DNA of 64,000 nucleotides from the NCBI GenBank assembly GCA_948144175.1, contig CANXME010002280.1, positions 248,001 to 312,000 on the forward strand, given 5' to 3'. Both the position numbers and the translations under genes were made by a program. Shown here in pieces: positions 20,936 through 60,248 of this stretch. Origin of the DNA: Closterium sp. NIES-65. Its lineage: Eukaryota > Streptophyta > Zygnematophyceae > Desmidiales > Closteriaceae. The notes under the pieces are model-generated. The model saw only the letters and a program-made list of their open reading frames with translations, searched no databases and was not told the DNA's origin. The number at the start of each line of letters is the position of its first letter. Position 1 is the first letter of the stretch.

Positions 20936-21326
20936 GTGGCTCCTTACTCAGGGAAGGTGGTGGGTCCGTGAGGAGGCTAGGTGGAGCGACGGCGGGGCCG
21001 GGTGAGGCGGCGGCCAGTGGATTCTCGCCTTTTAAAATTCCTTAAAAGGAGACCTCCAGGTAAGTTGAAAACTCAACCTTGGAATATGTCTGCAATACGG
21101 GCTGGATGGACCCAATGTTGCGTCAAGCACTTAACGAAACTTCCGCCGTTCCTTTTTTTTTCTCTCTCTCTCTCTCTCTAATGCAGATATGTTCGTCGTT
21201 CGTGAGCCACAGGGAGTGTCTCGACGTTCTCAAGCAGATGGTCTGCGCCACGGGCTGCAATCCAGATGAGCCGGAGAGACTGGCTCTTGAGCCGACTCCA
21301 GGGCCCACCACCTTGTTACCAGACTC

Positions 21327-21602
21327 GGGGAGTGTCTCGACGTTCTCGAGCAGATGGTCTGCGCCACGGGCTGCAATCCAGGTGAGCCGGAGAGACTGGC
21401 TATTGAGCCGACTCCGGGGCCCACCACCTTGTTATTAGACTCAGGGAGTGTCTCGACGTTCTCGAGCAGATGGTCTGCGCCACGGGCTGCAATCCAGGTG
21501 CGCTGAATTCTTCTGAAAGTCTCGTCAATGCTGCCGTTTGTGAGCTTCAGGGAGTGTCAGGACATTCTTGAGCAGATGATTTGCGTTACATGCTGCAATC
21601 CC
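21327..21602 (+). repeat. three ghost copies of the CATGCNP exon
   Basis: 21327-21381 (donor GTGAGC), 21443-21497 (donor GTGCGC; 116 bp from the previous copy) and 21540-21602 (donor lost) repeat the 3' part of exon 21187-21265. They are out of frame with it. Confidence 0.8.
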
Positions 21603-22387
21603 AGTGAGCTGGATGGATGGACTAGCTCGTTAGTAAATGCCGGAGGAACTAGCTCTTGTGTCGATACCAAAAATCACCACCTCATTTGCGAGTTTAAAGT
21701 AGTGGCAGTGGGTCATGCAGGCCGTTTTAAAAAACCGAGCTTTAAGGAGTGTCAGGGGCTCCTGCATGTGGTTTTTTTGGACAAAAAAAACCGAGCTTTT
21801 AAGAGTGTCGGGGGTATTACATGTCTTTTTCAAAAACAAGGACAGAGATTCAAGGAGTGTCATTTCAGGGAGTATTGGCGGCATAGCTCACGTGCCAATC
21901 CTCGAAATTCTCCATTTCTAAAGTCCGCCATTCCTTTGAAGTTCTCCATTCCTATAAAAGCTCACCACTTTGAGATCCTTGTTCCTATAAGTTCTCCGTT
22001 CTTTGGATTTCCCTGTTTCTCATAATTCCCCATTCCTTGAGTCCTCCGATTGTCAACTCTCTGCGTCTGGTTGTCTGAAACTGCCTTGCAGATTCCGGAC
22101 AGTATTTGGAGCCGCCGCCAGGGGAAACGGGCTTGATGCGCATTTGCGAGCCTTATGCACAAACTGCGTGTTTATCAGAGTTTCCTGCGTCTGATTTTTG
22201 TAACTGCATTGCAGATTCCGAGAAGTATTTGGAGCTGCCCCCAGGGGAAGTGGGCTTGATGCGCATTTGCGAGCCTTATGCACAGGAGCTGTACGACAAA
22301 TGCAAAGACGTGGTACGTAAGTGACGTAACCTGGTAACCACCAGGCACGGCTGTGCCAAGTAAGCTAGGAATTTGTGGCGCCTTGGG

Positions 22388-23439
22388 TACCGTATTACCC
22401 CGGATATAAGCGCACCTGCGCTTATAACGAAGCGTGCTTTTTTAGGGGGGTGAGTTTATAATTGAGTAAAATTTATAAGCGCATGCGCTTATAAAATGAC
22501 AAATAGACATATATGTTAAAAAAGCACCAACCTGTACCGTATCACCCCGGATAAAAGCGCAGGTGCGCTTATAATAAAACAATGTTTTTTAGGGGGGTGC
22601 GCTTCTAATTGAGTCATTTTTATAAGCGCATGCGCTTATATAATGACATCTACAGATTTATTTTTTTAAGACACCAAATCGCATATTTCACTCTTGCCAT
22701 TTCAACCGAGTCGAAAAAAATCGCGTCACAAAACAGAATCGCGTGCAAGCGATTCCCTTTCAGCACACACGGGCCAAGATGCGACTCTTTGCAGTCATGC
22801 CAGCACATCCTGACTCGACGCGCAGACAGTCAGGTCTTCGAGAGTCAAGCTACGCGAAATTGAGATTGCACTCGATTCAAAAAAGAGATTCGCTACCGTT
22901 TTGAACAAGAAATTTATTGTATAATTGTACATGTGTTTATAATACGTGAAGTTTTCAAAGGGGGTGCGCTTATAAATGAGGATCGACCATAAGCGCATTG
23001 CTCGAGATAGAAGCGCATGCGCTTATCATAGGCGTGCGCTTTTATCCGGGGTGATACGGTATATCTCCTCCTTGCAACTTCAATCGAATCATAATTTTGA
23101 CTGTCACAAATCAGAATCTTGCGCGGTCGATACTCTGCCGGTGCACAGGGGCAAGGTTACACGTCAGACTGCTGGAATGCCAGCTCATACTGACTGGACG
23201 CGCAGGATGTGAGGTCCTGAAAGTCAATCGAAGCGAAAATGGTTGTGGCCTCGTTGCAAAATTGGAATTCGTTACCATTTTAATCAATATTTAAATTTGA
23301 AATTTGACATGCGCGTATAATAAGTCTGGTTTTTACAGGGCGTGCGCTTATAATTGAGGATCGGGCATAAGCGCAGTGCTCCAGATATAAGCGCATGCGC
23401 TTATCATAGGCATGCGCTTATATTCGGGGTGATACGGTA
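22388..23439. mobile_element. outer MITE, interrupted by a second copy
   Basis: Left end TACCGTATTACCCCGGATATAAGCGCA (22388) and right end TGCGCTTATATTCGGGGTGATACGGTA (23439) are imperfect inverted repeats. Removing 22535-23061 leaves about 525 bp, the size of the inner copy. It lies in an intron of the decayed secreted-protein gene. Confidence 0.85.
22535..23061. mobile_element. inner MITE with perfect 27-bp terminal inverted repeats
   Basis: Ends are exact inverted copies (starting TACCGTATCACCCCGG, ending CCGGGGTGATACGGTA). Flanking TA on both sides fits a TA target duplication, as used by Tc1/mariner-type transposases. The interior is AT-rich with several TAAGCGCATGCGCTTA palindromes and no transposase ORF, so it is non-autonomous. 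The 6.5-kb fragment is a third family member. Confidence 0.88.
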
Positions 23440-24119
23440 TCTATTGCGACCCTTGTGCATAGGGGTTGTATGACAAATGCAAGGATGTGGCGCGTAAGTG
23501 ACGAGGCTGCGCCTCAAAATATGATGTGTGCGTGCTTCCGTGTGCATCTTATGTACCTAGGCAAGTGAGGGCACCGACAAGTGCTGCAACGGCCCGAAGC
23601 AACTCCCCGAAAGCAACGTTCCCTGTGACCCACTCCCTCTCTCCCCACACCCACTCTCCCAGGCAAGCGAGGGCACCGACAAGTGCTGCAACGGCCCGAA
23701 GCAACTCCCCGAAATCGACGCGTGCTGCGACCCGCTCCCCACCACTCCGGAATGCACCCTCGCCAAGCTCAACGTCACCTCATTCCCGCAATTTGTACCT
23801 TTCATCGGCCGGACCATTGCCGATCCCACCTGTCCGACCGCTCAAAGCCGAACCAGTGCTGCTGATTCCGCTGCTGTGGGCTCTCCACCTTCCCCCCCAT
23901 CCAAGTCAGCCCAATGTACCAGCCTGGTTTCTGGGATGGTGGGGTTCGGCCTGTTTGCGCTGGCAGCTGCTGCTTCTTCCACGCTTCTCATGTAAACAGA
24001 TTGGAATTCAGACGGTTCTTTATCAGCCAAATCCTCAGGCCCCAGGTGTCCGGCCGCACAAAGCAGGTCCTGTGGTCAGGCCCTCATATTCGTTTTTGGC
24101 CTGTCTGATTCGTCAGACT

Positions 24120-24300
24120 AGTATACAATTTTAGTCTGAAAATCTCAGAGTTGGTATAAAAAAAAGGCTGAAATTTCAAAGTGTCCTAAAAAAAAAGTCT
24201 GATAATTCAAAAACAATGTATTCAATGTTTCATCGGAATGTAATCAATGTTTCATTCATCTGCTACCGAAACACACAACACTAAAGGGGATTTCCGATAA
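24120..24300. repeat. AAGTCTGAAAATTTCAGAGTT-type degenerate repeat
   Basis: Short A-rich words (AAAAAAGTCTGAWAATTYCAGAG) recur here and at 27960-28130, on both sides of the 24.3-27.7 kb copia element. The element probably landed inside this repeat block. Confidence 0.6.
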
Positions 24301-24327
24301 AACATGCTCTGACAGGGTGAATATATG

Positions 24328-28646: not shown

Positions 28647-31403
28647 TCACAACCCTACCCACGCCAGCCACACTCCCAACCAGCTCAGTACAAGCCCCAA
28701 CACGGCCCCACTCCCTCGCCCACCACCACCACCAGCGCTTTTCTTCCCTGCAGTCCCCGCATCAGGTGCCGTTCCGAGCATAGCAAGGGAAGGGTTCTCA
28801 GTGCAACCCTTGCTGTCGATCTGCCGGCCCACAAACGGGCGGAACTCGGGGTTCTCCTTGAAGCTGACGGTGCCGCGAGGACACGTTCGGGGGACCTTTA
28901 ATGGGTCGCAGCAGAGGGTGGTTGCTGGGAGGGCCTTTGGTCCGTTATAGCACGCTTCATTGTTCTGTAAAGGAGCAAATGGGTGAAACGGGGGGGCAAG
29001 AGGGCAAGGTGTTATCAATTAGTGTTGTGGGGAGAATAGATGGGGGGTTTGGAGTTGCTGCAATAGCCCTTGCTGTCGATCTGCCGCCCCACAAATGGGC
29101 GGAAATCGGGGTTCTCTTTGAAGCTGATGGTGCCGCGAGGACACGTTCGGGGGACCTTTAATGGGTCGCAGCAGAGGGTGGTTGCTGGGAGGGCCTTTGG
29201 TCCGTTATAGCAGTGCAATGTTATCAATTAGTGTTGTACGGATGATAGGTGTGGGGTTTACGACACCCATTACAGGAGAGAGTGTGTGAGGAGATAATCG
29301 GCAAAGAGGGCTCACCGGTTTAAAGTTGACAGTGTAGTTGAGCGTGCCGATCAGCCCGACGACCGCTCCAAAGAGCGATGCTCCCTCGACATGTTACCGC
29401 ATATAGTTTAAAGAATCCAGCAACCGAGGAGTTCAGTTGACTTTCGAGTCGACTCAAAAACGATGCTCCCTCGACATGTTACCGCATCTAATTTATAGAA
29501 TTCAGCGACGGAGGAGTTCAGTTGACTTTCGAGTCGACTCAAAAGCGATGCTCCCTCGACATGTTATCACATCTAGTTTATAGAATCCAGCAACCGAGGA
29601 GTTCAGTTGACTTTCGAGTCGACTCAAAAGCGATGCTCCCTCGACATGTTACCGCATCTAGTTTATAGAATCCAGCGACCGAGACTTTCGAGTCGACTCA
29701 AAAGCGATGCTCCCTCGACATGTTACCGCATCTAGTTTATAGAATCCAGCAACCGAGGAGTTCAGAGCCTTACAGGTTTGATCTTGACGGTGTAGTTGAG
29801 CTTGCCAATTAGCCCGATGACCGCTCCAAAGAGTTTTGTCATGAAGAGCTCTTTAGTGGGGAAGAAATCCGCCATGGTTCCAAAGCCGGGCACTGGTGGG
29901 TGGTTGTGGGGAGGGATGTAGAATAGGGAGTGGAGGAAATGAAGTTCGGTTGGGATGCGTAGCTACAAGGGCAGAACAGAGCAGCTCTGTCATGAGTCCA
30001 AAGCCGGGCACTGGTGATCGCACATGGGGTGTGTGAGAAGAGGGAGAGGGAGAGGAGGGAGCGGAGGGAGGAGAGGGAGGACGGGGAAATAGCACCAAAA
30101 CGCTTGTTCTGATGGTTATGGGAACATCAGGGAGTATGGGGGGAGTTGGGTGCAAAGAGGTTGAGAGCGGTTCAACTCACGTGGAAGGTCCTTGCAGCTT
30201 TCGTAGACGACAGAGGAGTAGTCAGAGCACACGGACAGGATGCCCTTGGTGTTTCGGTCCACAATTTGCAGGTAGTTTCCCGACTCTGCAAGTATGGGCA
30301 GGTGAGGAAATTCGGATGTTTGCAAAAATTAGGATACATATGCATTTTTGCGAGCCGGTCTGCCAGAAGAAAAGAAGAATGGTAGTCTGGCGAGACGAAG
30401 TCGACGAATACTGGCGAGACGAAGTCGACGAATACTGGCGAGACGAAGTCTGGAGAGACGAAAGAAAGCAGCGGGCCCAAATTGCGAGCTCACTGTATCC
30501 TGAAATCCCACAATGTGTCGTTTGGATCACACGCAGTCGCACCTGGGTCGCAGCCGTTGGCGCAGACGACTTGTTCGAGGTGCAGCTGGCACGCGGAGTT
30601 ACTCGCGAAGATGGAACAGAGCTGGGGGGAGGGAAGAGGGGGAAGGGGGGGATTGGGGAAGGGAAGAAATGGCTTTTTGGACCAAAAGGGGAAGGGGAAG
30701 GGGAAGGGGAAGGGGAAGGGGAAGGGGAAGGGGAAGGGGAAGGGCGGAAAGCGATTGGGGGTTGACGGAAGGGCAATGGGCTAATTGACCAACGCGGAAA
30801 AGGGAGTGAGGATGGGGCGCGTGAGTGGCGATTGGCGAATGTGGGAGCAAAGCCTGGGAAGGATGGGAAACAGGGGAAGTGGGGAAAGTGAAATAAGTGC
30901 ACCAATGCTGACTTTCCGTCTCGTCCATCGAAGCGCTCACCTGAATGTCTTTGCCGACCGAGGCCGAGGCCGGACGATATTTAATTGAAAATGCCGGAGC
31001 CCTTGGCGCTGACGGCCTGCTGTTAGCCTTCTTTTGGCCTTCTTCTGACCCTCGAATCGCTCACCTGAATGTCTTTCCCGACGAGCACGCGTCCGAGGCC
31101 GGACGAGATCTGATTGAGGATCCCGGAGCCCTTTGCGCTGACGGCGAGCAGGGCGAGTTTCAAGTCGTAACAGTCTGGGCAGCACGTGTACTTGGTGGCT
31201 CCCACGCACCGCGTGAATGTTAAGTTAGACTTGGTAGGCGGCTGCTTCGTGTACGGACATAGCGGGAAGTTCGGTTTGTCTTCCGCTGAGACTGGTGCTA
31301 TGAGGGCGAGAGAGAGGAGGAGGAGGGAGAATAGGAGACGTGAGGGTAACGAGATTTGGGTGGATTGCCGAGTCCGTGTGTCAGGCAGCGGTGACTTCCC
31401 CAT
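28647..31403 (-). CDS. folate-receptor-like, probably GPI-anchored secreted protein (5 exons)
   Basis: Exons on the minus strand: 31065-31403, 30543-30621, 30181-30285, 29774-29892, 28647-28964; total 960 nt, 319 aa, all phases consistent and junctions GT-AG. Residues 1-40 form a signal peptide (LLFSLLLLSLALIAPVSA, cut before ED). The body is Cys-rich: PLCPYTKQPPTK, CCPDCYD, LEQVVCANGCDP, VCSDYSSVVYESCKDLP, NYTVKIKP (N-glycosylation sequon) and LCCDPL. The C-terminus is Gly/Ser-rich with a hydrophobic tail, fitting GPI attachment. The C-GC-P ... C ... Y-x-x-CK arrangement recalls plant Folate_rec-type proteins; ligand unknown. Its paralogue at 32773 lies head to head, 1.4 kb away. Confidence 0.7.
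29375..29765. repeat. 85-bp tandem repeat, five copies, with GAGTCGACTC palindrome
   Basis: CGATGCTCCCTCGACATGTT starts at 29375, 29461, 29546, 29631 and 29705 (spacing 86, 85, 85, 74). Units include GAATCCAGCAACCGAGGAGTTC and TTTCGAGTCGACTCAAAA. The first unit begins inside the ghost of exon 4 (AAGAGCGATGC), so the array seems to have grown from a ghost-exon junction. Confidence 0.85.
30687..30744. repeat. (GGGGAA)n hexanucleotide repeat
   Basis: About ten copies in intron 1 of the minus-strand gene, close to its exon-2 acceptor; on the transcript it is a (TTCCCC)n pyrimidine tract. Confidence 0.9.
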
Positions 31404-32772: not shown

Positions 32773-35190
32773 ATGGAGAAAGCTAAGCTCGCCACTTGGT
32801 TCCTCGCCATAGCTCTTCTCGCAATGGTCACCGTTGCTGAAAAGTACCCTCTATGTCCGTTCACAGGCCTCCCTCCGACAAAACCAAAAGTATCGGCCTC
32901 GCGATGCCTCGACGCCGCTGAAATGTCATGCTGTAAGGACTGCTCCGATAGACGATACGCGCTCGCCGAAGTCAGCGCGAACGTCACAACGCTCATCTCC
33001 ACAGTAGATCCTCGCCTTTCGAATCTCCTCGGCGCCAGAGACATTCAGGTAAGCCGAGAACGAAGTCGTGACGTGTTGAGAACGAAGTCAAACTCAAAAC
33101 ACGATCATCGGCAACAAAGACGTCCAGGTAAGCTGATGATGATAATCTAGTGCAATCGGGGCCGTCACGTATTTACTACCCATACGTTATCGCTATGATC
33201 CAATTAAAATGAAATTCACCCTGATGAGCGCGCCGTTCCTGCAAGGATGCTTGATCTGAGGCGACTAAAAACTGCAATCTGCTCGTTGATTGTGCATGCA
33301 GCTATGCTCGTCGTTCGTCAACTTCAGGGAGTGTCAGGACCTTCTCGAGCAGATGATATGCGCCACGGGCTGCAACCCAGGTGAGCCGGAGGGATTAGCT
33401 CTTGAAGCAACTTCGAAAGTCACCACGTCGTTCGTCGAGGGAGTGTCAGGACCTTCTCGGGCAGATGATCTGCGCCACGGGCTGCAACTCCAGTTGCGCT
33501 GCTGAAGGCTTCCGAAGAATTCCCAAAAGTGATTTCAATGTCAACGTTCGTGAGCTTCAGGGAACGTCAGGACCGTCTCGAGAATATTCGTAGCTCCTTT
33601 GATAGATCTTAATCACGTTTGATTCAAACCTTCGCAGCTTTCCTTCGTCAACGCTCCGTTTCTCAGAGTTCTCCATCTCTCCAAGCCACTCCATTCCTAA
33701 TTCTCAACGTTTCTGCGACTGGTTATCTGTCTCTCAGATTCGGGGAAATATTTGGATCTCCCGCGCGGGGTAGTCGGCGAGATGCGCGTTTGCGCTCCTT
33801 TCGCTGACAAGGTGTACGAGAAATGCAAGGACCTGCCGCGTAAGTGATGTAACCTGGTAACCACGGCTTTCGCCGACAAGGTGTACGAAAAGTGCAAGGA
33901 CCTGCCGCGTAAGTGATGTAACCTGTTAAACACTGTCTGCTGCGAAAGAGATGTACCCAGGTAACCTATTCGCAGTACTTCTGTTGGGGTACCTAAAATT
34001 CACCTCTTTCTCTTTCCCCCATTCCCACAGTACCCGGCTTTCAAGGCGCCATTTCTCAGTACTTTAACTCGGGGGAGAAGCTAATGACGACCCTGTTCGG
34101 GAGGGTCGGCCAGGCCTTCGATGCTATCAACTACACAGTGGTGGTCACTCCTGTAAGCGCTTTGTACCGCTCTGCAGCGTGCCGGTCACTCCGGTAAGCG
34201 CTTTATACCGTCCTGCACCATGATAATCACACCAACAAGCTCATACCGGTCTACACCACGCTGGTCACTTCGTTAACAATTTCATACCGCTCTGCGAGCA
34301 CCTAGTTGGTGTTCTGCGACCCGCTGCCTTCCTCCCTGACTCCTCCATGCTATATGGAAATCACTTTTGAGATTTCCAAAAGTGATTTCTCAAAAGTGGT
34401 TTCTGACGCCAATGCGTTCTGCGACCCGCCGCCATTTTCCCCCACTCCTCCACGCCCTCTCCCAACACTCCTGTCTCCCACTCCGTCTCCTCCCTCTCAG
34501 GTTCTAGAAGGCACCGACAAGTGCTATAACGGCCCGCTGAAGCTCCCCTACACCAACGTTTGCTGCGACTCGCTCCCCTTTTCCCTCACTCCTCTCCCCA
34601 CTCTCTCCCTCTCTTCCCACAACCTCCCTCTCAGGTTCTAGAAGGCACCGACAAGTGCTATAATGGCCCGCTGAAGCTCCCAGCCACCAACGTGTGCTGA
34701 GACTCACTCCCCGTTTTTCCTTACTCCTCTTTCCACTCCTGCTTTCCCCACTCCTCCTCTCTCCCAGGTTCTTGAAGGCACCGACAAGTGCTATAACGGC
34801 CCATTGAAGCTCCCCGACACCAACGTGTGCTGCGACTCGCTCCCCGCCACCAAAGAGTGCCCCATATCAAAGCTCAACGTTACCGCGCACCCCGAATATA
34901 AGCCTTTCATCGGCCGGACCATCGCCGACCCTTCCTGCCGTAAAGCACCAAGCGGTGGGGCCGGTGACTCTCCTAATGGCTCTGCTGGTGGCTCTGCTAG
35001 TGGCCCTGCTAGTGACCCTGCTAGTGGCTCTTCTAGTGGCTCTGCTAGTGGATCTGCTGCTAGTTCCTCTGGTACAGGCTCTTCGGCGTCGCCTCCTCCC
35101 CCCAAGGAGGCTGGACGGCTGGTGCTGGCTTATAGGGGGGTGTTGAGTGTTTTTGTGCTGGCAGCAGCTGCTTGCCTTGCGCTTTTCTAA
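32773..35190 (+). CDS. folate-receptor-like, probably GPI-anchored secreted protein (5 exons)
   Basis: Exons 32773-33048, 33302-33380, 33738-33839, 34031-34152, 34768-35190; total 1002 nt, 333 aa, GT-AG junctions and consistent phases (0,1,1,0), identical in pattern to the 28.6-kb paralogue. Signal peptide WFLAIALLAMVTVA. The Cys-rich ectodomain includes PLCPFTGLPPTK, CCKDCSD, CQDLLEQMICATGCNP, VCAPFADKVYEKCKDLP, PGFQGAISQYFNSGEKLM, NYTVVV (sequon), DKCYNGPLKLPDTNVCCDSL and PFIGRTIADPSC. A Gly/Ser/Ala repeat region and hydrophobic tail VLSVFVLAAAACLALF indicate GPI anchoring. Role at the cell surface is inferred; ligand unknown. A SPARK-type or other Cys-rich fold is an alternative. Confidence 0.72.
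33105..34767 (+). repeat. ghost exon fragments in the introns of the 32.8-35.2 kb gene
   Basis: Downstream 3'-part ghosts: 33105-33127 (exon 1, GTAAGC donor), 33434-33491 and 33540-33590 (exon 2), 33867-33909 (exon 3, GTAAGT donor), and 34180-34195 with weaker copies to 34275 (exon 4 end). Upstream 5'-part ghosts of the last exon: about 34501-34580 and 34635-34700 (VLEGTDKCYNGPLKLP with CTCTCAG acceptors), plus short pieces near 34310 and 34410. Confidence 0.82.
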
Positions 35191-36118: not shown

Positions 36119-36191
<73 letters not shown>

Positions 36192-37764
36192 CGGGTATGC
36201 TCACAGGCATGGGGATGGTAATGGGTATGGGAATTGGTATGGGTATGGGTATGAAGATGCAGATGGGTATTGTAATGGATATGGGGATGGGGATGGATGG
36301 GGATGTGGATGGGCATGGTACTGAGTATGGTTATGGGGAAAGAGATGGGAATAAGAATGTGTATCAACCAGCTCGCCTGTGTATCAACCAGCTCGCCTGT
36401 GTATCAACCAGCTCACCTGTGTATCAACCAGCTCACCTGTGTATCAACCAGCTCACCTGTGTATCAACCAGCTCACCTGTGTATCAACCAGCTCACCTGT
36501 GTATCAGCCAGCTCACCTGTGTATCAACCAGCTCACCTGTGCATCAACCAGCTCACCTGTGCATCAGAAGCTCACCTGTGCCGCCGGTCACGGTCGTAGT
36601 CCCTCCCACGCCGGTCCCGGTCCCGTCCCCGCGCCCAGTCATCATCTCGGTCCCTCTCTCTCCCCCTGTCCCTGTCCCTGTCCCTGTCACGATCGCGGTC
36701 CCGATCCCTGTCCCTATCCCTATCCCTCTCCCTTTCCCTGTACCTATCCCTATCCCTGTCCCTGTCTCTGTCTCGGTCCCTGTCTCGGTCCCTATCCCTA
36801 TCCCTGTCTCTATCCCTGTCCCTGTCTCTGTCCCTGTCCCCATCCCTGTCCCTCTCCTTGGCCTTGTCTCGGTCGTCTGTACGCTCTTTGCGCTCCTCAG
36901 ATCTAGGCCTGGGGGAGTATCGGCCCGATGAAGGGGATGCGCGGAGGAGCATGAGGAGCACAAGTACGAGGAGCATTGGGAAAACGGGGGGTACGAGGAG
37001 CAGGAAGAGAAAGAGGAGGAAGTGGCAGTGATGGGAGGGAAGCATGAGGAGGAAGATGCGAAGTTAAAGTATGTATGAGCAAGATGACTTTTGAGTCACC
37101 TCGTTACCATGGCACACACGGAGGAGGATGAGAAGTTTAGGTATGAGCAGGCCAATTTCTGAAGCGCCCCAAAAGTAGACTAGTTGCAATGCCACATCAG
37201 AATGAGCGTAACAAGCCCGCTTTCACTTGCAGATTCTCAAACAGAAAATGCCTCATTTCACGTGGACTAAAAAGGGATGTTCCAAAAAGACTCACCGAAG
37301 CTCATCCTTCTTCCTCCTCTTCTCCTGCATCCAGAGCAAAAACAAACGAGAAAATGGTTAAGAATGTAAATATCAACTGAGATAAAGTTTTTCAATTCGA
37401 AAGGGTAGCACCATGGAGGAACGAACGAGCGCGGACGAAAGTGAACAGTGGAAGCAAAGAACGTCAAGAAGAGCAAAAACAAACGAGAGTGGGCGTAAAG
37501 AACCAGACAGGGAAGGAATGGAAAGGGAGAGTACAGAAGGTCAAAGGCTCACCCAATTCCGCTTCTCAGATTGAAGAGACGTGCAACAGAATCTGATGTG
37601 CTATGCACATGCACATGCACATGAACTCACCCGAATGTCGTTGATCTTGTCGCGGATAAAGAGATAGCCGAGATGCAGCTTCCCCCCAAAGTGGTCAGCC
37701 AGCCGCCTGTCGCTGTTTGTGCGGGTACAAGGTGCGTGTGCATGAGGAGAGGGAGAGAGAGAGA

Positions 37765-37857
<93 letters not shown>

Positions 37858-43128: not shown

Positions 43129-43217
<89 letters not shown>

Positions 43218-47786: not shown

Positions 47787-50700
47787 TTAATCAGCCTTTC
47801 CAGACTTCTCTGTGGACGGGGCTGGTGTGGTTAATGGCTTCTCTCCATCCTTCTTAGTCGCCTCACCGTCATGCTCACCATCCTTATCGTCACCATCCCC
47901 AGACTCATCATAAGCCAATAGCTGCTCACACGAAACGGTACTGAGTTAAACATCACCATTTTCTGTTCCAGGTAGGAAAAAAAAAACGAAAACTTATAGC
48001 GCAAGAACAAGGATGATAGTCAAACCATACCTCCTTGAGTTCTCCTCGGATTGCTCCGTGTACACCTAGAAAACCCATCACGCCGGGAACAATATAAAGC
48101 AGGGCAGGCTGCACACACAGAGAGCATCCGCATGAAACGCACAAGAAACACAGGACAGGATGCAGAAACCGAACTTCCAGCCTTTCTATGATAACGAAGG
48201 GTGAGTTAACTTTAGCATGCTTATGCACATACCTGGGCAGCTTGAAAGTAGTTCATTACGAAGATGGTGGTAATGATGCCAGCCATGTAACCGGCAAACG
48301 TGGAGACAAAGTAACGCGGCCCAGTGCCTCTAGAGACATCGAACCTTAGAGCGAGTGCCACAAAGATGCCTGCAGTGGGAAGTGTGGGTGCAGAGAGGGG
48401 TGAGGGGTGCACAGATAGGTGGTAAACAGTTAGTGAAACACAGAGAGAAGTGAAAACTTATCCTGAGAATCCTCAAGGAAGAATGCAGTAGGAAGAATGC
48501 AGTAGGAAGAATGCAGTAGGAAGAATGCAGTAGGACGAATGCAGTAGGAAGAATGCAGTAGGAAGAATGCAGTAGGAAGAATGCAGTAGGAAGAATGCAG
48601 TAGGAAGAATGCAGTAGGACGAATGCAGTAGGAAGAATGCAGTAGGGAGAATGCAGTAGGAAGAATGCAGTAGGAAGAATGCAGTAGGAAGAATGCAGTA
48701 GGAAGAATGCAGTAGGAAGAATGCATTAGGAAGTAGTGGACAACAACAAGGATCATGTCGTCCTCACCAGAATACAACAACTTTAACAATGATACGGCAC
48801 ATTCCATAGAGATCCTGTACAACGGAACATCAAAAGTGCCAGGTGGCAGCAGGAGCTGCAGGTGACAGAAGGAGCAGCGGTAGCTAGCATACCAGGGATA
48901 ACAATGTCGCCCAGACCCAACAAGGAGAAAGGCCTTGCGAGGTCACCAGTTGGAAACAGCAGCTGCAGTGGTTTGGAGAAAAGGTGAAGGAGTTGAGGCA
49001 TGAGTGTAAGAATGTGTTAAGGAGCGTGTGAAGGGCACTACAGGAGGCAAACTGGAAAAAAAAAAAAAAAAACAGTAAGGTGGATGCACACCTTGATGCA
49101 TGCGAGGGGTGCATGCGAGGGTTGCATGCAAGGGGTGCACGGGTGCATGCAAGGGGTGCATGCAAGAGTTGCATGCAATGGCTGCATGCAAGGGTACATG
49201 CGATGGCTGCATGCGAGGGGTGCATGTGAGGGGTGCATGCGAGGGGTGCATGCGAGGGGTGCATGCGAGGGGTGCATGCGAGGGGTGCATCATACATGCG
49301 AGGGTTGCATGAAATTGTCGCATGCGATGGCTGGATGCGAGGGGTGCATGGTTGCTCGTTACGATGATTACCTTGCAGCTCATATGCTTGTTAGTTACTC
49401 GTGCATACCTTGATGGGTGCGTCAAATGACTTGGCGACAGAAACCATAACTGGCGTGAAGAAGACCCAGAAGATATCGTAGAAGAAAAGACCAGTCTGGG
49501 GGAGGGGAGAATGAGGGGGCACGTGGGGGGGAACGGGAGGGTGTGGTGGGGGGGGGAACGGGAGGGTGTGGTGGGGGGGGGAACGGATGGGTGGGAGGAG
49601 GCAGGATTTGACCACAATGTAGCAGACCATAACCGGAGTGAAGAAGACCCAGAAGATGTCGTAGAAGAAAAGACCAGTCTGGTTGGGGGGAGAACGAGGT
49701 ACAGGGTGGGCCAGGTGGAGAGGGTAAGGGGAAAGGGATGGGCAGGAGGAGGTGAGATTTGGGCGCAGGGGAAACGATCAGAGCAGATTATAGGGGGAGT
49801 GAGCAGGTTCCAGAAGATATGATAGAAGAAATGAGCAGTCTGGTTGGGAGGAAGAATGAAGGGGTGGGTGGGGCGGGTGGGGGGATTGGGAACGGTGAGG
49901 GGGGAGGAAACAACGACAGAGGCCATGCGTGGAGAAGACCCAGAAAATGTTGTAGAAGAAAAAGGCCAGCCTGGTCAGTGAGAAAAATGAAGGGGCCGGT
50001 AGGAGTCAAGCGTGGAGGGTGGGGGTGAAGGGATGGGCGGAAGGAGGTGAGATTCGGGCGCAGAGGAAACGGACACGACCATAGCAAAACCACGCCCACG
50101 AATTAGGCTTTAATCATTGACTGGTTCCCCAACCCAACCTCACCAGCAGAATGGCACCGATCTTGAATGAAGGAGCCAAGGGAGAGCAAATTTATGCCCT
50201 GCAGGTCAGTGGTGTACCTGGAAACCTGTGGGCTTGGAATCACCGAACCACCCACCAACCAGGCTTGAAAATGAACCCACCTTTCCACCTCACCAGCAGA
50301 ATATTCCGATTTTGAAGGAGCCGAGTGAGAGCATTTCGATGCCGTGCAGACGTTTGGTGGACATGAGAAGCCGTGTTGACTGAAACCACCAAACATCCCA
50401 CTGTACAAGCTTAGACCATTGATCCCACACCCCGGACCTCACCAGCAGAATGGCGCCAATGTTGAAGGAGCCGAAGGAGAGTGAGCATCTCGATGCCCTG
50501 CAGACCTTTGGTGGACTTTGGAACTTGTGGGCTAGGTTTGACCCAACACGCCCAACTTACCAGGAACGCCCAGCCTGTAGCCTGAGCGGTGCGCATAGTC
50601 TCACCAGCAGCACATGGCCTCACCAGCAGGATTGCTCCAATCTTAAAAGAGCCGAGGGAGAGCATCTCAATCCTTGCAGGGAGAAGGCGAGGCATTGAAA

Positions 50701-52853
50701 CCACCCAGCAACTAGTGACCCCAGAGCCTAACCTCACCAGCAGGATAGCACCGATCTTGAAGGAGCCGAGGGAGAGCATCTCAATTCCTTGCAGGGAGAA
50801 CGCGAGGCCGAGGGCGTTGTTGGCGAACCAGTGCTTGCGCGTGACGTACCACACGCAGAACGCCGAGCTTGGAATGCCCGCCACCACCTGCGCCATCGTC
50901 AGCTCTATCTCGAAATCTGGGCATGAATAGAGGTAGGGAGAGAGACGGGCGGAGGGAGAGAGAGATGGGGTGGGAGGGAGGGACGTGGTAGAGAGGAAGA
51001 GTGAAGGATCTAAATTCATCCCAAAGCAGGATTGGTTGAGAATGGCCAGCCATCGCCTGAGAGGTCCGGATCAGAGTAAAACCTTAGTTTACTTAAAAGC
51101 CGAAGCCTAAGCTATTTTCAGCTCTATTTCAACATCTGGGGACGACGGTAGGCCAAGGTGATTATTTGGCTGGCACAGCCAAAAACCGCAATTCTTCTGC
51201 AAGCCTTTTGGTGATTTGGTGCTGTATGTTCAGCTGCCAGAATGTGTACAGGCAATGATCGCAAACGAGAAGAAATAAACCGACGAATACCTTTAAAGTA
51301 GGGTGCTTTCCAGTAGAAAATATCCTCGTTCCACTTCGCAGGAACAAATCGCGACACAAGGGGAAGAATTGTGGCCCTGCCAAGAGAAAAGTTGGGGGGT
51401 TGCGTAAAGCAGGCAAATTCTGAAAAACTCGAGAGTGAAATGGCAGACTGGTGGAAGTGTGTGCAAGCACAGTAGGCACTGGGCAGGAATGCACACAAAA
51501 CCCAAGGCAAAAACGTAAATGAGAGGAACTACAAAAAGGTGAATCTGATCCCAGACGAGACGAATATGTGTTTTCACACTGCGAAATTTGAGGTTTCACA
51601 GAGCCAGTAGGTGTGTTGGGTGGTTTACCCGATGGCCATGACACCCAGGAAGACGAAGTAGGCGCTGAGCAGAATGTTGACCAGGTCCTTGAGAGGAACT
51701 TGAGAAGTGAAACGTATTGTCAACGCCAAAATCCCCCCCTCCCTTCTCCCCACCCCCCTCCGCCATTTTCCTCTCCCCTCTTCCCCCTCACCGCACGCCA
51801 GTCGACAATGGCTTACCCGATGGCCATGACTCCCAGGAAGACGAAGTAGGCGCTGAGCACCATGTTGACGAGGTCCTTGGGGAGGAACTTGAAGAGCAGG
51901 AAGAGCGAGAAGAGCACGCAGCTGCCGATGATGGGGAACCGCATGGCGTGCTCCTTCGACATCGTTTCCTGCACGGATAGCGCAAGAAGGGGGAAGAGAA
52001 GGAGCAGCAGGGGAGAGAAGAGGGGGAGAAGGGATGTGAGGGAAATGGGAAGGGTGATAACGGCTCATGGTGGGAATCGCCATGGCGTGCTCCTTTGACA
52101 TCGTCGCCTGCACGGATCGAAGCGGAAAGGTGGAATACTTAGAAGTGAATTCCAAGTGATCTCGTGTCTATGATAGAGAATGAGGAAGAGAACGACGGGG
52201 GTAGTAGGGATATCAGACGGTGGTGAGGACATGCGAAATGAGGTAATTCCTAGTTTTTTTTCAGATTAGACAATAAAAAAAAGACCAGCAATCAAGGCTG
52301 GCGATGCTAGTCGTAACGAGAGTATACGCTTTGGGATGAATTTAGAGCCGCAAGACTCAAATGGTCTACTCACAGCTGGAGCGGCCGGCTTGACGGATCG
52401 GTAACAGCCAGCGAATACGGTTAGCGAAGCCATGGCGACAACATTGAAGTTGGGGTTGATTTTCACGAAGAGCGGAGCCACGGATAGACCTGTCAACGTC
52501 AGATTGACGTTAGAATGGACAGGGAAAAAGGGGATACCGAATATATACTGAGCTGCTGTTCAGCTTAACACAGTCACAGAAACTTAAAGGTCAAGCAACT
52601 GAAATTTCGTGAACAGTTGAAGATGGGACTCGAATGGAAGTACGGATCCAGAATGTGTGTTAATACTAATTGCATGAAGAATGGACGTGATTAAACAATG
52701 GGCAATTTTTCGGATCTCGGACGGATTGACTTGTGAAAATCATTTAGACAAGGATGTCAAGTAAATTTGCACGGAAACGCACGAAAGACGGCAGGCATCA
52801 CACAAGATCCTACCAGCTAACAAAACGTTCGATATAATTTCCGCCTTCCCCAT
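47787..52853 (-). CDS. SPP: signal peptide peptidase, intramembrane aspartyl protease (10 exons)
   Basis: Exons (minus): 52814-52853, 52374-52489, 51817-51968, 51291-51376, 50738-50916, 49409-49495, 48893-48962, 48233-48369, 48031-48108, 47787-47921; 1080 nt, 359 aa, all phases agree. SPP is a multipass ER protease that cleaves signal-peptide remnants within the membrane. Catalytic motifs are YD (Y197-D198 in GLFFYDIFWVFFTPVMV) and GLGD (236-239 in SLLGLGDIVIPG), with PAL at 290-292 (QPALLYIVPG). The order and spacing match Arabidopsis SPP (about 344 aa). The start MGKAEIISNVLLAGLSVAPL fits a first membrane segment. The C-terminus is acidic/Lys-rich and cytosolic in this family. Minisatellites and ghost exons fill the introns without touching the exons. 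Confidence 0.96.
48477..48738. repeat. 14-bp minisatellite GAATGCAGTAGGAA, ~19 copies
   Basis: Near-perfect head-to-tail array in the SPP intron between exons 7 and 8, with a few G/C-substituted units (GGACGAATGC). Confidence 0.95.
49084..49355. repeat. GGTGCATGCGAGG minisatellite, ~19 degenerate units
   Basis: 13-15 bp units with GCATGC palindromes in the SPP intron between exons 6 and 7. Preceded by an A-run at 49053-49070. Confidence 0.92.
49620..52112 (-). repeat. ghost exon fragments of SPP exons 3, 5 and 6
   Basis: Exon 6 has three upstream ghosts (about 49620-49682, 49785-49845, 49925-49985), each beginning after a CAG acceptor (FFYDIFWVFFTPVMV in the first). Exon 5 has four downstream 3'-part ghosts (about 50145-50215, 50290-50345, 50440-50510, 50590-50662), each ending GCTG|GTGAGG as the true exon does, and a 5' stub at 51117-51134 with its acceptor. 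Exon 3 has an upstream 5' ghost (52085-52112, MSKEHAM) and a downstream 3' ghost (51640-51692, DLVNILLSAYFVFLGVMAIG) with donor. Confidence 0.9.
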
Positions 52854-53439: not shown

Positions 53440-56400
53440 TCAGGTGTCAACATTCATCTCTCCAATAACTAGCTGGGGTCTCGCATCCCCTCCAGCCGCA
53501 CGTTGCAAGGAACATGGATCCGTTGTCCCCTCCCTTCCAATGTTGCTACCAACTGCATCCGACCTTTCACTTGGATTATTAGCATTTGACTCTGGATGCC
53601 GTGGTTGTTGTCCTTGCCCTTGTGGGAGAGCTGGTTGAGTTCGTCCCTGCATTCACATTCATACAACAATAGTTTACATACTTAGATTGATAAGAAACAG
53701 TAGATAAATACATAGATGATTTAAATTATCATGCTCCTGAACATACCTCAATAACCTGTCTGCTGAGCATGAAGTATTGATTCGGATGTGTGATCCCCGT
53801 GGGGCATGGAGCACCTTGCGATGCTTCAAATGTCAAAGCACAGGAAATCTGCCACAGACAAATCAAGCATCCCAGGAAAAGTTAGGAGTAAAAAGGGATT
53901 TAAAAGGAAATCAATCCATTAATATCAGTTACCGTGAACAGACTCAGCGAGCTTACACCAAAGATTGTCAGGGAAGCCTCCCTGGTAGTGCTGCTGGTGT
54001 GTTTCAGCATGATCTCATCCCCCGCTGCTCCTGACAAATTTCAAGGCGCCTCAAAGATTATTCTCTCTACCCTCAGCCTACCTGGTAGTGCTGCTGCCGT
54101 GTCTTCTGCATGATCTCATCCATGGCTGCTCCTGACGACACCCCCATGCGAGAAAGGGCAGCTCTCAAGTTGTCCTCGCTGCGCATAGTACAGGCATGCC
54201 AGAGGGATAAGAGTATATTTTCTGGTATTGACAACGGCCTCTTAGTTGACTACAAAAAGGGTAGCTCTGGAGTTTAGGGTTTAGGGTTCATGCTGCGAAT
54301 ATACAAGGGAAAAGGGCGAATGTTGTGGAAGATTACACCTCAGAAAGACTGAATAAAGACCCTATCATCCAACTCACACACACCTGAAGTGCTTGAAGGG
54401 ACACCCGTGGTGATCTCCCACGCCAGGTGTGCTCATGATGACCTTTACACAGGAGAAGGGAGTGTAGTCGGTGCGCTTGCCCTCAGTAGAACACTGAGCA
54501 CAATACCGTGTGCTTTTGAGGGAATACACACCTGAAGTGCTTGAAGGGGCAGCCGTGGTGATCTCCCACCCCAGGTGTACTCATGATGACCTTCACACAG
54601 GAGAAGGGAGTGTAGTCCGTTCGCTTGCCCTCCTTGCCGTAGTTGTGCCGGATCGAATACGCATACTCCTTGTCAAACCGCTCCGCACCCATCTGCATAT
54701 ATCAGTCCAAGACAAATGCAAAGGTAAAGAAAAAATGAGTATTCGTGTGAAGGGGGTGTAGTCCGTGCGCTTGCCCTCCTTGCCGTAGTTGTGCCGGATG
54801 GAATACGCATACTCCTTGTCGAACCACTCCGCACCCATCTGTGATAGCAATAATGTAAAAAGAAAAATGCAAAACCGGCATCTAAGTATGGGTGTTTATG
54901 TGGATGGAGTGTAGTCTGCAAGGATAGGTGCCACAAGGCGAGTGCATCCTCCAACCTCAGCTCGATGCTTGGTGAGGTGCTTCAAAATATAACAATGTGT
55001 TAGTCGTCACAAGAGTGCCGAGCTGAGCGGACATACCTTTCTGGAGAACTCAGAGCGCCACAAGGCGAGTGCATCCTCCAACCTCAGCTCGATGCTTGAT
55101 GAGGTGCCTCCAAGGAGATTGGGAACAATGCCATAAGCATACGTGCATTTCAAAAATATCACAATTTGTTAGTCCCCACAAGAGTGCAGGGCTGAGCAGA
55201 CATACCTTTCTGGAGAACTCAGAGCGCCAGAATGTGAGTGCATCCTCCAATCTCAGCCCGATGCCCTGCAAGGACGTAAGATGAGGGGAGGGAATAGAGG
55301 AAGTGCATGAAGGTGGGGTGGAATATAGTAAAGAAACAGAAGGAGCAGACGTAATGTGAGTGCATCCTCCAATCTCAGCCCGATGCCCTGCGAGGACGTA
55401 AGATGAGGGGAGGGGATAGAGGAAGTGCATGAAGGTGGGGTGGAATATAGTAAAGAAACAGAAGGAGCAGACGTAATGTGAGTGCATCCTCCAATCTCAG
55501 CCCAATGCCCTGCGAGGACGTAAGATGAGGGGAGGGGATAGAGGAAGTGCATGAAGGTGGGGTGGAATATAGTAAAGAAACAGAAGGAGCAGACGTAATG
55601 TGAGTGCATTCTCCAATCTCAGCCCGATGCCCTGAAAAGAAGCATGGGGTGAGGTGGAAGGGAATTGAGGAAGAACAGGGAAGGCGAAATGGGAGAGAAT
55701 CAATGACATGGTGAAGATACAGAGGACAAAGAATACAAGAGGGATGGCATCGAGAAAATTGCAGGTAAGGGATGCATGCAAATGCATGCAACGTGGGAGC
55801 ACGAAGAAGCACGGGAGTGATCCGTGGGAACGAGAGCACAGTCAGCATGCTTTATAGAAAGAGCTGATGGCGATGCTGAGACGCTGTTGCATAGTCGGCA
55901 TGCTTATAGAAAGAGAAGCAAAGGAGCTCAGCTGCTTTCGATCTGCATCAAGCCAGTTGTACACTGTACCTTAAGAAACAGCCCTAGCTGCATTCTGCCC
56001 CCGTGCCGCAAATGGTGCTCCTCCCGCAACTGGAAATGGTTACCGGGCACACAAGGGGTTGGGTGGGGCATGGAAAAGATGGAAAGGGAATGATTTTCGA
56101 GGCATTCTACGTGGGTTGAATCCCAGTACATGGATGCCACATGTCGTGTGGCTTGCTTGCCCCGTTAGCTTTGTCGACTCGAATCGAAGTACATGGATGG
56201 GTGCAACGACAAAGCTAACGGGGCAAGCAAGCCACACGTCGCTCTTGCGAGCGATTTTGGGGAACTCTAAGTCCACAAAAACCTTTTCACGCCTAACCAC
56301 ATGTGGTGTGGGAGGGTGATGTGGGTGCTTTGGAGGGCAGGTGGGGGATGCAGAGGGGGGACGTGTTTCGGGTGTGCCTGGACAAACCTGCAGACGGACA

Positions 56401-59400
56401 CATGCCGTGGTTGTGGCAGTGGCAGTGGCAGTGGCTGTGGCTGTGGCACGAAATTTGAGGATTCTCGGAGAACTCTCGCATCAAAGCGTACACGGTGCAA
56501 AGAATGGGTACCTTGAAGAAGAGGTGCCGCATGCAGGGAGGAAAAGACTACCCCTAGCCCGAGACGAGCCGACACAGGTGTGTAGTTACTTGCCTACTGC
56601 AGCTCGCCCAGTCCTAATGGCAAAGAATGCGTACCTTGAAGAAGAGGTGTCGCATGCAGAGCGGAAAAGACTGCCGCGCCACAACGTCCAAATCACGGAG
56701 CGACACCTCAGCAGTCTCGCCAGGCTGGCAGAGCAGTGGAGAGACAGGGGGGGGAGAGACGGATGGGGGAGGAGGGTTAGGGAAGGAGAGGAGGATTGGG
56801 GAGGGAAAGGAGGGGAAAAAGGAGGAGATGAGATTTGAGTTGACTCCAACCAAGCTGCCTCAGAAGTCTCTATTTGACCTCAGGTCAAATGGAGGCCTCT
56901 CTGCTTGAAGTTAGTTGTATTACCTGGGAGAAGTCAGGGCCTAGATAGCGTGTGCTGAGAGCCTCAATCACTGGTGTCAGGCGTTCTTGCTCGTCTTCTT
57001 GTATGTGGGCAAGCCACTTCCTGGAGGACGGTGACGGGGTGGGGAGGAAGAAGGGATGAGCAGCAGTGACCGGCTTCAGGCGTTCTTGCTCGTCTTCTTG
57101 TATGTGGGCGAGCCACTTCCTGGGAGACAGGAGGGGACAAAATGGAAACGGAAGGGAAAGATCAATGCAATGTGAATGTCAGAAAAAAAAAATATGAGAT
57201 GGAAATAGTGATTAGACGTGAATCAATCAAACGGAAATATCAATGAGATGTGAAATAACAGACGATACTGCTCAAATAGGAAACCAAAACACCGCATCCA
57301 TACCATTAACTCTCTCATAAACTTTCTTCTCATCAAAATTCCAAGATTCACCTGTTGGTTGCCACGAGTGCTTTGGACAGCTTGGCTCGAAATTGACCAA
57401 CCACAATGGCCGCCAGCTGGCACACACGGACCGGCACGCGTCAGAGAAGGGGACGGATCATTGTCTGAGGAGCCTAAAAGAACAAGCCATGTTTATGAGG
57501 CGCATCACAAGCTATGTTTATGAGGCGCATCACAAGCTAGTGCTCTGGTTAGACTGGCTATTAAGTTGACGTTTTGTTTGCGTCTGACAGCTCAAGCTAT
57601 GTTCATGAGGCGCATCACAAGCTAGTGCTCTGGTTAGCTAAGCTTGGGACTGACCCACCACAATGGCCACCAGCCACACTCAGCAATGAGGGAAAAAAAA
57701 TCACAGCCATGGGAGTGAGGGAGAGGAGAACGCATTAATTCATTAACACAAGAAACATGCAATCCCATACCTGGTCGCTGGGGACTTTTTTGAGTCGACT
57801 CAAAATCGACTTACTATGTGAGGAAGAGGAGAACACATTGATTCATTAACACAAAGAACATGCAATCCCATACCTGGTCTCTGGGGACAAAGGCAAAGCC
57901 CTTTTCGAGATAAACCCTGCGAGAAGCCACCAAATCAGGAACCTCCTCGAATGGAACCTGCCACGAAGGAGAGATCGGATGGGGGATGCGGGGATAGATG
58001 ATGAGACATACGCGTTACTGCCTCCGAATACCTGCCATGCCAGTAAGCGAGCAATCTAACAAGGAAAAAAACCAGAAAGTATGCACTCCAGCGAGTTTCC
58101 ACAGAAACTAAAGGATGTACCTTGTTGTAGACACTGTCAACTGGAGCTATCACGCCGTCGCAGATTTACCTCACAAGTTTACCTTGCATACGTGCGTGCA
58201 AAAATTCACAACGAATGGACTTACCTTGTAGAAGACACTGTCGACTGGAGCAGTCGTGCCATACAGGTTGCCATGACGAAATGGGCAGGTTGGAAGGGCG
58301 GGCAGGTTGGAAAAGTGGCAGGATGGAAAAGGGTTAGGTTGGACAATCCACAGACATGTGCCAGGACTGTTTGGGAGACGTCGCGCCAAAAAGAAACAAC
58401 AGTGATAAAGAAGATGGGGACCAGTCATTGAAGGCGCCACCACTTGGTGACAGAATTATCAGAGAAAGGTAAAAACAAGATTGGACTGGCTGTAAATCGT
58501 TGGGAATAATTTGGTCTTTTGAAGGTAAATTACCATTTGGAACAGGTAGGTTTAGGGACCTGGCCACTTGAGTGAGCTTCTCTCGCACTCCCTGTGTTAG
58601 TGAAGGGGAGAAAGAGAGGTGGGAAGGAGAAATGACTATTGCATTGAACATGGGGACTCAGGCTAATTGGGATTGACGTTTGAAGTGGGACAAACGAGCG
58701 CAAGCAAGAGGCTGGCATGATACTTAGCTAAACGCCAGTAACTTAAGATTCACCCATAACCTAAACAGTACACATTGCACTTGCCGTCATCTCTGCTGCG
58801 CCAATAGCACGATAGGGAAGGCCATTGCTCTCCAAAAACCACCTCTGATCAGCGAGAAAGACGGTGGGGAGCGGAGGAACCAGGGGGAAAAGGGAGGAAC
58901 GGAGGGAAAGACGATAACATGCAATAGATTCACATGCAGTGGTGTAGAACGAAGGAGGCAGTTTTATTCTCTGGCGGTTAGACCCTCACTTGATCGTCTA
59001 AACGCCCCACTAATTGTCTGAAGTGCCCACACGCTGTGGAGATTTCCCATTACTCTCTGGAATGTATCCAATTAGTATATGGAAACTCACTTGGTTTTCA
59101 GGCGTCTCAGCACGGAATCTGTGGCGGATAGAGCCGATTCGTGCGCCAACATCCAGAGATAATATTGTTATTCAATCGTCTGTCTGTACATGTCAACTAA
59201 AGAATCGACTCACCTGGTTTTCAGGGGTCTCAGCTCGGAACCTGTGGCGGAATAGAGCCGATTCTTGCGCCAACAACCACCGCCGTAGCTCCTCCCTGAA
59301 CCACCGCCAAGTGAATAATGGACCACTTAAGGGGTACAACATTGCGAGCCGAGTGATGCGAACCCTTAGGCGACAGTAGGGAATGTTTGAAATGTCTCTA

Positions 59401-60248
59401 ACGACTCATGTGCGACAATAGGCGAGGCGTCTCAAAAGGCTCACGTGCGACAGTAGGCGAGTCGCAGGATGTAGTGCGATATGACGTCTTTGCGACGAGC
59501 GTCAGCCAATGAGCATCCAGCTCGCATGTACTTCCGCCATATGTCTGACACCTGCGAAACAAAGCGTGGTGCGTGTAAATAGCAACACCAGAATCTGAGC
59601 CTGTCTGATGCCACCGAGAGACAGAAGTATCATGATCTGGCACGAAATACGGGAACTACCATCAATTGGCACGAAAGAAACGGCGTGACGCTATCATGCA
59701 AGCTCCTACCTGGCTAAACGTTTCCGCCAATCTTTCAGAGGTAGGACGCACATACCATGCTGTCGAGCTCGTCCACCTTTGTTCCGCGCGCCTTGGCGTC
59801 GTCGATCGCCTTGAGCACTGCGCACGGAAAAACAAGACTCGCTTCAGATTCCGTTACAAACGAGTGGACAGGCCACGACGAGCCGTGAACCGGACCTACG
59901 CGACGAATCTCAGACCGTCCTTTGACCCGTTCGATTCTATCCTGCACGCTTCGGGAGCCAACCGTTTTCCAGACATGTTATTGCAAAACAGATATCTAGG
60001 CTTTTTTTTTCTAATGCTAGCTCACCCCGGAGCCGGTCCAGCGCGAACTCCTCGAATTGCTCCATGGCCACCTCTTCCCCCACCGGCGCCTCGTCGTACA
60101 TCGACAGCTGGCACGCGGAAGCTCCGCCGCTTCCTGCGGAGGATTTCCATCCCGACAGACCTACGCCGCGACCGTCGGCGCCGACCGTGCCGGGACCCTG
60201 CGCTACTGAAGGTGCGGCTCGTTTTCGTGAGGTTACGTTGAAATCCAT
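53440..60248 (-). CDS. PRI2: DNA primase large subunit (17 exons)
   Basis: Exons (minus): 60026-60248, 59756-59817, 59445-59551, 59214-59295, 58785-58844, 58534-58591, 58225-58244, 57874-57957, 57352-57416, 56924-57020, 56635-56724, 55970-56029, 55206-55265, 54532-54692, 54082-54178, 53756-53848, 53440-53646; 1626 nt, 541 aa, phases consistent. The protein partners the small primase subunit and Pol alpha to make RNA primers. N-terminal half: [44 protein letters not shown]-terminal Fe-S domain: [10 protein letters not shown] (C309), [36 protein letters not shown] (C388), [10 protein letters not shown] (C404), ISCALTFEA (C445), HPNQYF; the Cys spacing matches human PRIM2. Exon 7 is a 20-nt microexon. 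The donor after exon 5 is GC. The Gln/Pro-rich tail is lineage-specific. Confidence 0.96.
53970..57121 (-). repeat. ghost exon fragments, 3' half of PRI2
   Basis: Exon 15: downstream ghost about 53970-54030. Exon 14: downstream 3' ghost 54385-54477 (with donor) and upstream 5' ghost 54755-54840 ([20 protein letters not shown]). Exon 13: upstream ghosts of its first about 32 nt in three 123-bp tandem units (55266-55634) and downstream near-full copies at 55036-55095 (donor intact, acceptor lost) and 54936-54985. Exon 11: downstream ghost 56515-56570 (CMRHLFFK with donor). Exon 10: upstream ghost 57069-57121 ([14 protein letters not shown] with acceptor). Confidence 0.9.
56145..56238. repeat. 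perfect 32-bp inverted repeat (hairpin) in PRI2 intron 11
   Basis: Arms 56145-56176 and 56207-56238 are exact reverse complements (core GTGGCTTGCTTGCCCCGTTA), separated by 30 nt. A short direct repeat AGTACATGGATG (56127-56138, 56188-56199) overlaps one arm and the loop. The transcript would fold into a long perfect stem. Confidence 0.95.
57640..59440 (-). repeat. ghost exon fragments, 5' half of PRI2
   Basis: Exon 9: upstream ghost 57640-57680 (AIVVGQ). Exon 8: 57771-57790 repeats VP-DQ|GTATGG. Exon 7: a second 20-nt microexon copy at 58121-58140. Exon 4: downstream ghost 59092-59150 ([12 protein letters not shown] with GTGAGT). Exon 3: downstream ghosts 59395-59440 and about 59350-59380 (RLAYCR end). 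Confidence 0.82.

Follow-up and report, generated by a model that had tools for sequence, protein, structure and literature searches.

Exon fragments in the introns of Closterium sp. NIES-65 genes: an oriented layout, coding-like divergence and a possible origin in off-register joining

A tandem duplication that takes in the end of an intron and the start of the following exon leaves a truncated exon and then a whole one, and a duplication of the end of an exon and the start of an intron leaves the reverse order; duplication of a whole exon, or within an exon, would change the protein. In rice, frequent short tandem duplications were reportedly recognized from natural insertions by Vaughn and Bennetzen in 2014. 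Exon borders can also be crossed by such events. For example, in the potato RdRp gene a tandem duplication across a boundary has left a truncated exon beside the intact one (Ma et al., 2016; PMC4974935). Short direct duplications have also been described as a recurrent mutational class in the filling-in of DNA breaks (Schimmel et al., 2021; PMC8355091). In the Closterium complex, gene pairs within strains peak at a silent-site divergence (Ks) of about 0.35, and polymerase chain reaction (PCR) has confirmed that sequences of different origin recombined in the hybrid strain NIES-4550 (PMC10407611). Here, a stretch of 64,000 nucleotides from Closterium sp. NIES-65 (a desmid of the class Zygnematophyceae; contig CANXME010002280.1, positions 248,001 to 312,000; hereafter, the window) is analyzed, in which introns are crowded by fragments of their neighbouring exons. 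This observation is real and extends beyond the window.

Four genes of the window were modelled: PRI2 (DNA primase large subunit; 17 exons, 53443..60248, minus strand), SPP (signal peptide peptidase; 10 exons, 47790..52853, minus strand), LUC7 (exons 1-9 as modelled, with the 3' end not resolved; 37631..47319, minus strand), and the folate-receptor-like gene FRa (5 exons, 32773..35190, plus strand). Each exon, extended by 30 flanking bases, was searched against its own gene plus 900 surrounding bases, and matches with a score of at least 44 were taken as fragments. The search returned 35 of them (14 in PRI2, nine in SPP, seven in LUC7, and five in FRa), of which 30 contain exactly one exon border, the rest being four internal pieces and one complete exon of 20 bases. 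All 13 5' pieces lie upstream of the intact exon and all 17 3' pieces lie downstream, the reverse arrangement being absent, and the splice dinucleotide is retained in 26/30 (GT in 15, AG in 11). An earlier note on this DNA had described about 40 such fragments under the same rule of sides, and this description holds: the rule has no exception among the 30 pieces, and to the 35 fragments are added at least one in a second folate-receptor-like gene, FRb, and four copies of exon 2 in a decayed paralogue. Its counts for SPP exon 5 (four) and PRI2 exon 13 (five) are likewise confirmed, and its statement that every spliced host gene is affected is true of the four modelled genes but not of each exon, since fragments adjoin 19 of the 41 exons.

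On the opposite strand of the modelled genes no fragment was found, against 35 on the same strand, and a control with other genes gave seven matches in three times the search space, so that about 2.3 chance fragments are expected. Direct orientation and proximity are those of short tandem duplications, with 20 of 30 offsets between 69 and 189 bases, and the side rule follows automatically when a tandem duplication breaks once inside the exon and the gene still works. Close pairs join exon and intron in 24/34 cases, whereas uniform placement predicts about 15 (12 across a border and three around a whole exon), and 10/34 lie in intron only, against 17 expected; the excess of exon–intron pairs is what would be expected if exons alone were similar enough to be detected.

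In PRI2, all fragments are on the minus strand, as is the gene. The 3' parts with the donor lie downstream of exons 4 (59085..59155), 8 (57741..57785), 11 (56497..56552, with an in-frame stop), 13 (55008..55095), and 14 (54378..54484, with seven of seven differences silent), and the 3' part downstream of exon 15 (53975..54035) has its donor changed from GT to GG. Upstream, 5' parts with the acceptor accompany exons 10 (57058..57123) and 14 (54749..54841), and exon 13 is preceded by three 5' parts (copy 1, 55353..55417; copy 2, 55475..55539; copy 3, 55597..55640). Internal pieces are found upstream of exon 9 (57624..57674) and downstream of exon 13 (54930..54968), and the 20-base exon 7 has a whole copy downstream (58106..58147). 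The models of PRI2 and SPP were obtained by spliced alignment to Closterium proteins, and their introns are GT-AG with one GC donor, at PRI2 exon 5 (58785). The draft PRI2 protein from the window matches a Closterium sp. NIES-64 protein, and the draft SPP protein matches those of Closterium sp. Naga37s-1 (99%) and NIES-68 (92%). Pfam supports LUC7 directly, PRI2 and SPP by way of close relatives (DNA_primase_lrg on the near-identical P0001, and P0241 for SPP), and FRa weakly, through a Folate_rec match below the family cut-off.

In SPP (minus strand), exon 3 has a 5' part upstream (52072..52117) and a 3' part downstream (51621..51703). Exon 5 is followed by four 3' parts: copy 1 (50618..50693, where one base is deleted and the six differences are all silent), copy 2 (50436..50503), copy 3 (50287..50349), and copy 4 (50133..50205). 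By eye, copy 1 opens with a pyrimidine-rich stretch and CAAG, and it may thus carry a new acceptor besides its donor. Exon 6 is preceded by three 5' parts (copy 1, 49626..49699; copy 2, 49810..49864; copy 3, 49914..49974). The NIES-68 SPP protein, P0242, has AYFVFLGVMAIG, which matches the end of exon 3, in tandem at residues ~91-114; an exon 3 fragment may there be annotated or spliced as an exon. A further SPP intron contains a simple tandem array (48465-48733), which reads on the minus strand as repeated HSSYCILPTAF.

The LUC7 model was built from three relatives, whose own models disagree around exons 7-8 and the 3' end, and the gene (minus strand) was analyzed to exon 9. It contains an internal piece downstream of exon 1 (47070..47133), 3' parts downstream of exons 3 (46376..46426) and 7 (44008..44078), and four fragments of exon 6, two of them 5' parts upstream (copy 1, 45126..45230; copy 2, 45441..45493) and two 3' parts downstream (copy 1, 44702..44816; copy 2, 44556..44646). 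Its last modelled intron, between exons 8 and 9, holds a reverse transcriptase open reading frame (ORF; RVT_1, 40121-42439). The exon borders of FRa (plus strand) were set by hand, and its exons join into a single frame of 333 residues. Exon 2 is followed by a 3' part (33426..33499) and an internal piece (33545..33582), and exon 3 by a 3' part with the donor (33867..33933) whose intron part is similar too; exon 5 is preceded by two 5' parts (copy 1, 34623..34713, with an in-frame stop; copy 2, 34477..34578).

Similar repeats occur elsewhere in the genome. The sample consisted of 250 kilobases (kb) from 20 contigs (290 kb in 29 stretches being read in total), and apart from repeats in common, 83-90% identical, no sampled stretch overlaps the window. 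Direct repeats at local range (up to 800 bases) number 89 for the window and 250 for the sample, and none was found in dinucleotide shuffles (one each of window and sample), a type of control that the earlier note had proposed. Inverted local repeats number 17 and 223, respectively, with 183 of the latter from one stretch. The commonest repeat offsets are those of 120-139 bases, seen in 34 of 214 pairs, and the 103 pairs with at least 85% identity and offsets of 40-400 bases, from the window and the 250 kb together, comprise 40 overlapping arrays, three head-to-tail pairs, and 60 with at least six intervening bases. Counted without a gene model, a donor-like motif stands at the block end 24 times in the sample against 8.9 expected (64 pairs, both copies and strands) and 15 times in the window against 3.8 (38 pairs). 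Acceptor-like block starts are in excess in the window (21 vs 12.3 expected) and not in the sample (22 vs 22.1). Of the earlier idea of a genome-wide process, the occurrence of such repeats elsewhere in the genome is supported, by the local repeats, the donor ends, and the layout of two sampled genes described below. Differences with a period of three are seen in the donor-ended pairs of the window (6) and the sample (8), are weaker in the other sample pairs (56), and are absent from the other window pairs (29; 0.332 vs 0.326, p 0.16).

Donor-ended pairs occur in three of the sampled stretches. Two of these, L005 (a CASTOR/POLLUX-like channel gene) and L007 (a BIG/Sec7-type gene), were studied further, the third (L028) being left out; they were selected for holding repeats and so inform on layout and codon pattern, not on frequency. 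With exon borders that are partly approximate, from pieced-together queries, they contain 19 fragments, and all 13 that could be classed follow the side rule. The other six (four spanning approximate exon ends, one internal piece, and that of L005 exon 1, where the copy first taken as the exon is the downstream piece) were kept in the codon counts, to which L005 exon 1 contributes one third-position difference.

The most surprising part of the data is the pattern of silent differences between fragments and exons, and a simple relic model is incomplete. Fragments of one exon are not independent, and for this reason one was counted per exon side: the resulting 34 fragments give a Ks of 0.254 and a replacement-site divergence (Ka) of 0.033, with a Ka/Ks of about 0.13, and all 54 fragments give 0.293 and 0.047. 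By reasoning, a neutral fragment next to a constrained exon would give a Ka/Ks of about 0.5. Third positions account for 121/173 differences in the pooled set (73/114 in the window and 48/59 in L005 and L007); over all fragments, differences at the three codon positions are 34, 39, and 119 in the window and 19, 21, and 92 in the two sampled genes. Simulations on the actual stretches, in which the fragment is free from birth and the exon gains silent changes, predict a third-position share of 0.44, and at equal rates none of 1500 reached the pooled value. With a doubled exon silent rate, 0.3% of simulations reached the share of the window and none that of the pooled set; with a fourfold rate, 29% reached that of the window alone and 2.3% that of the pooled set. 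Base make-up and base-specific rates were also considered, and they do not account for the third-position excess.

Single fragments show the same pattern. Eleven of the 54 have no replacement change or indel in their exon part, and nine of these carry silent changes (Ks 0.27); in the L005 exon 3 fragment, whose borders are approximate, eight of eight differences are silent. In each of the four SPP exon 5 fragments, an indel breaks the frame and silent differences lie on either side of it (in the nearest fragment, one before the indel and five after it, with no replacements), which indicates that silencing postdates much of the silent divergence. By parsimony, a silent bias is also present on the fragments' own branches (35/65), although some exon changes may contaminate this count. 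As a group, the fragments do not behave as extra copies that start identical and decay neutrally, although single ones may do so. Thus, the tandem duplication with one exon breakpoint put forward in the earlier note accounts for the side rule, but the plain neutral loss that was to follow is at odds with the Ka/Ks and with part of the adjoining introns. In 10/30 fragments, the intron part is no better aligned than shuffled sequence (z <2), despite an identity of 86-98% over the exon part (PRI2 exons 4, 10, 14, and 15, and SPP exon 3 are examples). The score is intermediate (z 2-10) in 12/30 and strong (z >10) in 8/30, among them PRI2 exons 8 and 13, LUC7 exon 6, and FRa exon 3, two or three of the eight taking in a neighbouring copy. 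In 15 comparisons between fragments of the same exon, the exon-derived block is mostly better preserved than the adjoining intron.

Four things are established: the repeats are local and direct, the pieces keep to their sides, such repeats also occur outside the window, and the divergence is coding-like. To explain them, we favour, with a probability of about 0.5 and from sequence comparison, the reading that many fragments were split from a diverged working copy of the gene by off-register joining and are not plain decaying duplicates. Short tandem duplications would keep arising through joins that step back some 70-190 bases, with breakpoints in exon and intron that would leave one exon whole and the other copy truncated, and geometry alone would place 5' pieces with AG upstream and 3' pieces with GT downstream. 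In many cases the strand would step back onto a diverged homologous copy, either a second copy in the same genome or another strain's allele, so that the fragment would derive from the tail of one coding copy while the exon left intact would belong to the other; after joining, the fragment would decay as intron. Such joining would explain the divergence at silent sites, the poorly aligning intron parts, and the pieces that look recently silenced yet are silently diverged. It is favoured on account of this late silencing and of the published within-strain Ks peak and the recombination in NIES-4550, the fragment Ks (0.25-0.29) being somewhat under that peak. A mixture fits the data: some fragments would have arisen recently by self-duplication, whereas for a larger class fragment and exon would have diverged while both were coding, before one of the two became a fragment. 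A broader version, which we hold only tentatively and as the less probable one, is that introns differ too much between gene copies or alleles for pairing, exons being the sole islands of homology, and that off-register joins leave behind the tail of the replaced copy, so that the fragments would form a genome-wide fossil record.

Several points weigh against joining to a diverged copy. The partner, the joining step, and its timing are deduced and not observed. The SPP exon 5 fragments differ from one another at different silent sites, so one partner would be insufficient, and several, or repeated events, would be needed. The nearest upstream copy of PRI2 exon 13, with a 98% identical intron, and the L007 exon 7 fragment, with no difference in 109 coding bases, are plain self-copies, and the eight strong intron alignments point the same way. 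By eye, FRa is matched more closely by its exon 5 fragments than by its two paralogues in the window, which indicates that these paralogues were not the partners. Finally, the silent differences could have been introduced by later gene conversion between copies and not by the join, and the deficit of intron-only pairs could also arise if pairs with no constraint on either side decay faster.

In a first rival account, an ordinary tandem duplication arises on a single chromosome and the truncated copy then decays neutrally. This yields the side rule and the intron similarity at PRI2 exons 8 and 13, LUC7 exon 6, and FRa exon 3, and source exons do acquire silent changes of their own; an exon silent rate four times the neutral rate of the fragment would make the window share an ordinary one. 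As a general account we find it unlikely, because that rate hardly suffices for the pooled share, lower rates fall short even for the window, the Ka/Ks and the branch bias (with its possible contamination) are those of coding sequence, and a third of the intron parts are too diverged for the age of their exon parts. Own-strand duplication followed by repeated conversion between exon and fragment, which would keep the exon parts alike and let the intron parts drift, agrees with the better preservation of exon-derived blocks in most of the 15 fragment comparisons, and the single FRb fragment (29067..29212, minus strand; a 5' part upstream of the last exon) is patchy, with 84 identical bases followed by five differences in 62. 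This patchiness may reflect a conversion tract or, alternatively, two ages; by eye, the acceptor-bearing stretch is absent from the fragment. Conversion by the neighbouring exon alone, however, cannot by reasoning raise the third-position share above the simulated neutral 0.44, and we regard this account as improbable.

Selection on the fragments themselves, as alternative or recursive exons, decoys, or splice regulators, would agree with their coding-like divergence and the retained splice dinucleotides, and the NIES-68 SPP protein does contain an extra copy of the end of exon 3, which is also a fragment in the window. On the other hand, 34 of 35 fragments have one border or none, so that the complete second exon expected of mutually exclusive or alternative exons is lacking in all but one; the aligned block is interrupted by an indel in 15/30 and two fragments contain an in-frame stop, silent differences run on beyond frame breaks, and the PRI2 and SPP records P0001 and P0241 follow the exons and include no fragment. 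Selection is therefore, in our judgement, a poor candidate, and the backup splice sites suggested in the earlier note receive little support. Coding-like differences would likewise result, by reasoning, if stretches of two similar gene copies had been stitched in tandem during assembly, but the frame breaks, stops, and lost splice sites, the exon identities ranging from 70 to 100%, the intact state of the four modelled genes, and the same exon-end repeat in the protein of another strain (P0242) make such an artefact very improbable.

The remaining features of the window lie mostly to the left of these genes. FRb spans 28803..31403 on the minus strand, and the decayed folate-receptor-like paralogue spans 21181..23833 on the plus strand, with its exon 2 present four times in a row at 21181-21605. 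The ORF list has long frames that look like Copia-type retroelement genes, at 285-4726 (plus strand) and, several of them, at 9400-20462 (minus strand); portions of the window between 9 and 21 kb reappear in sampled genome stretches with 83-90% identity.

If joining of this kind is confirmed, the introns of an alga closely related to land plants are being shaped by an oriented process that recurs and leaves splice sites scattered near the real ones. This would bear on intron growth and on the rise of new introns through tandem duplication, as well as on recombination between copies with introns that have ceased to match, and gene prediction would be affected because fragments can be mistaken for exons. 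Should the fragments be a fossil record, replaced alleles or gene copies would become readable, gene by gene, from silent sites.

A literature search, with scant coverage of subscription journals, returned no work combining Closterium, tandem duplication, and genome assembly, and otherwise gave single cases, reviews, and unrelated papers. The duplications reported from rice were reportedly not described as exon fragments and came without divergence in a codon pattern. The study of the Closterium psl complex concerns the same group of organisms and the PCR-confirmed exchange in NIES-4550, at the level of contigs and genes, and its relevant passages do not mention exon fragments in introns (PMC10407611). 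In the fill-in duplications of DNA breaks, sequence would be joined to itself, and the copies would, from the mechanism, be identical at first, unlike those proposed here for Closterium (Schimmel et al., 2021; PMC8355091). There is a likeness of layout with the potato RdRp gene, where one event in one gene made a new intron (Ma et al., 2016; PMC4974935), whereas in Closterium dozens of fragments, in several genes, lie in existing introns and have diverged from their exons in a coding-like manner.

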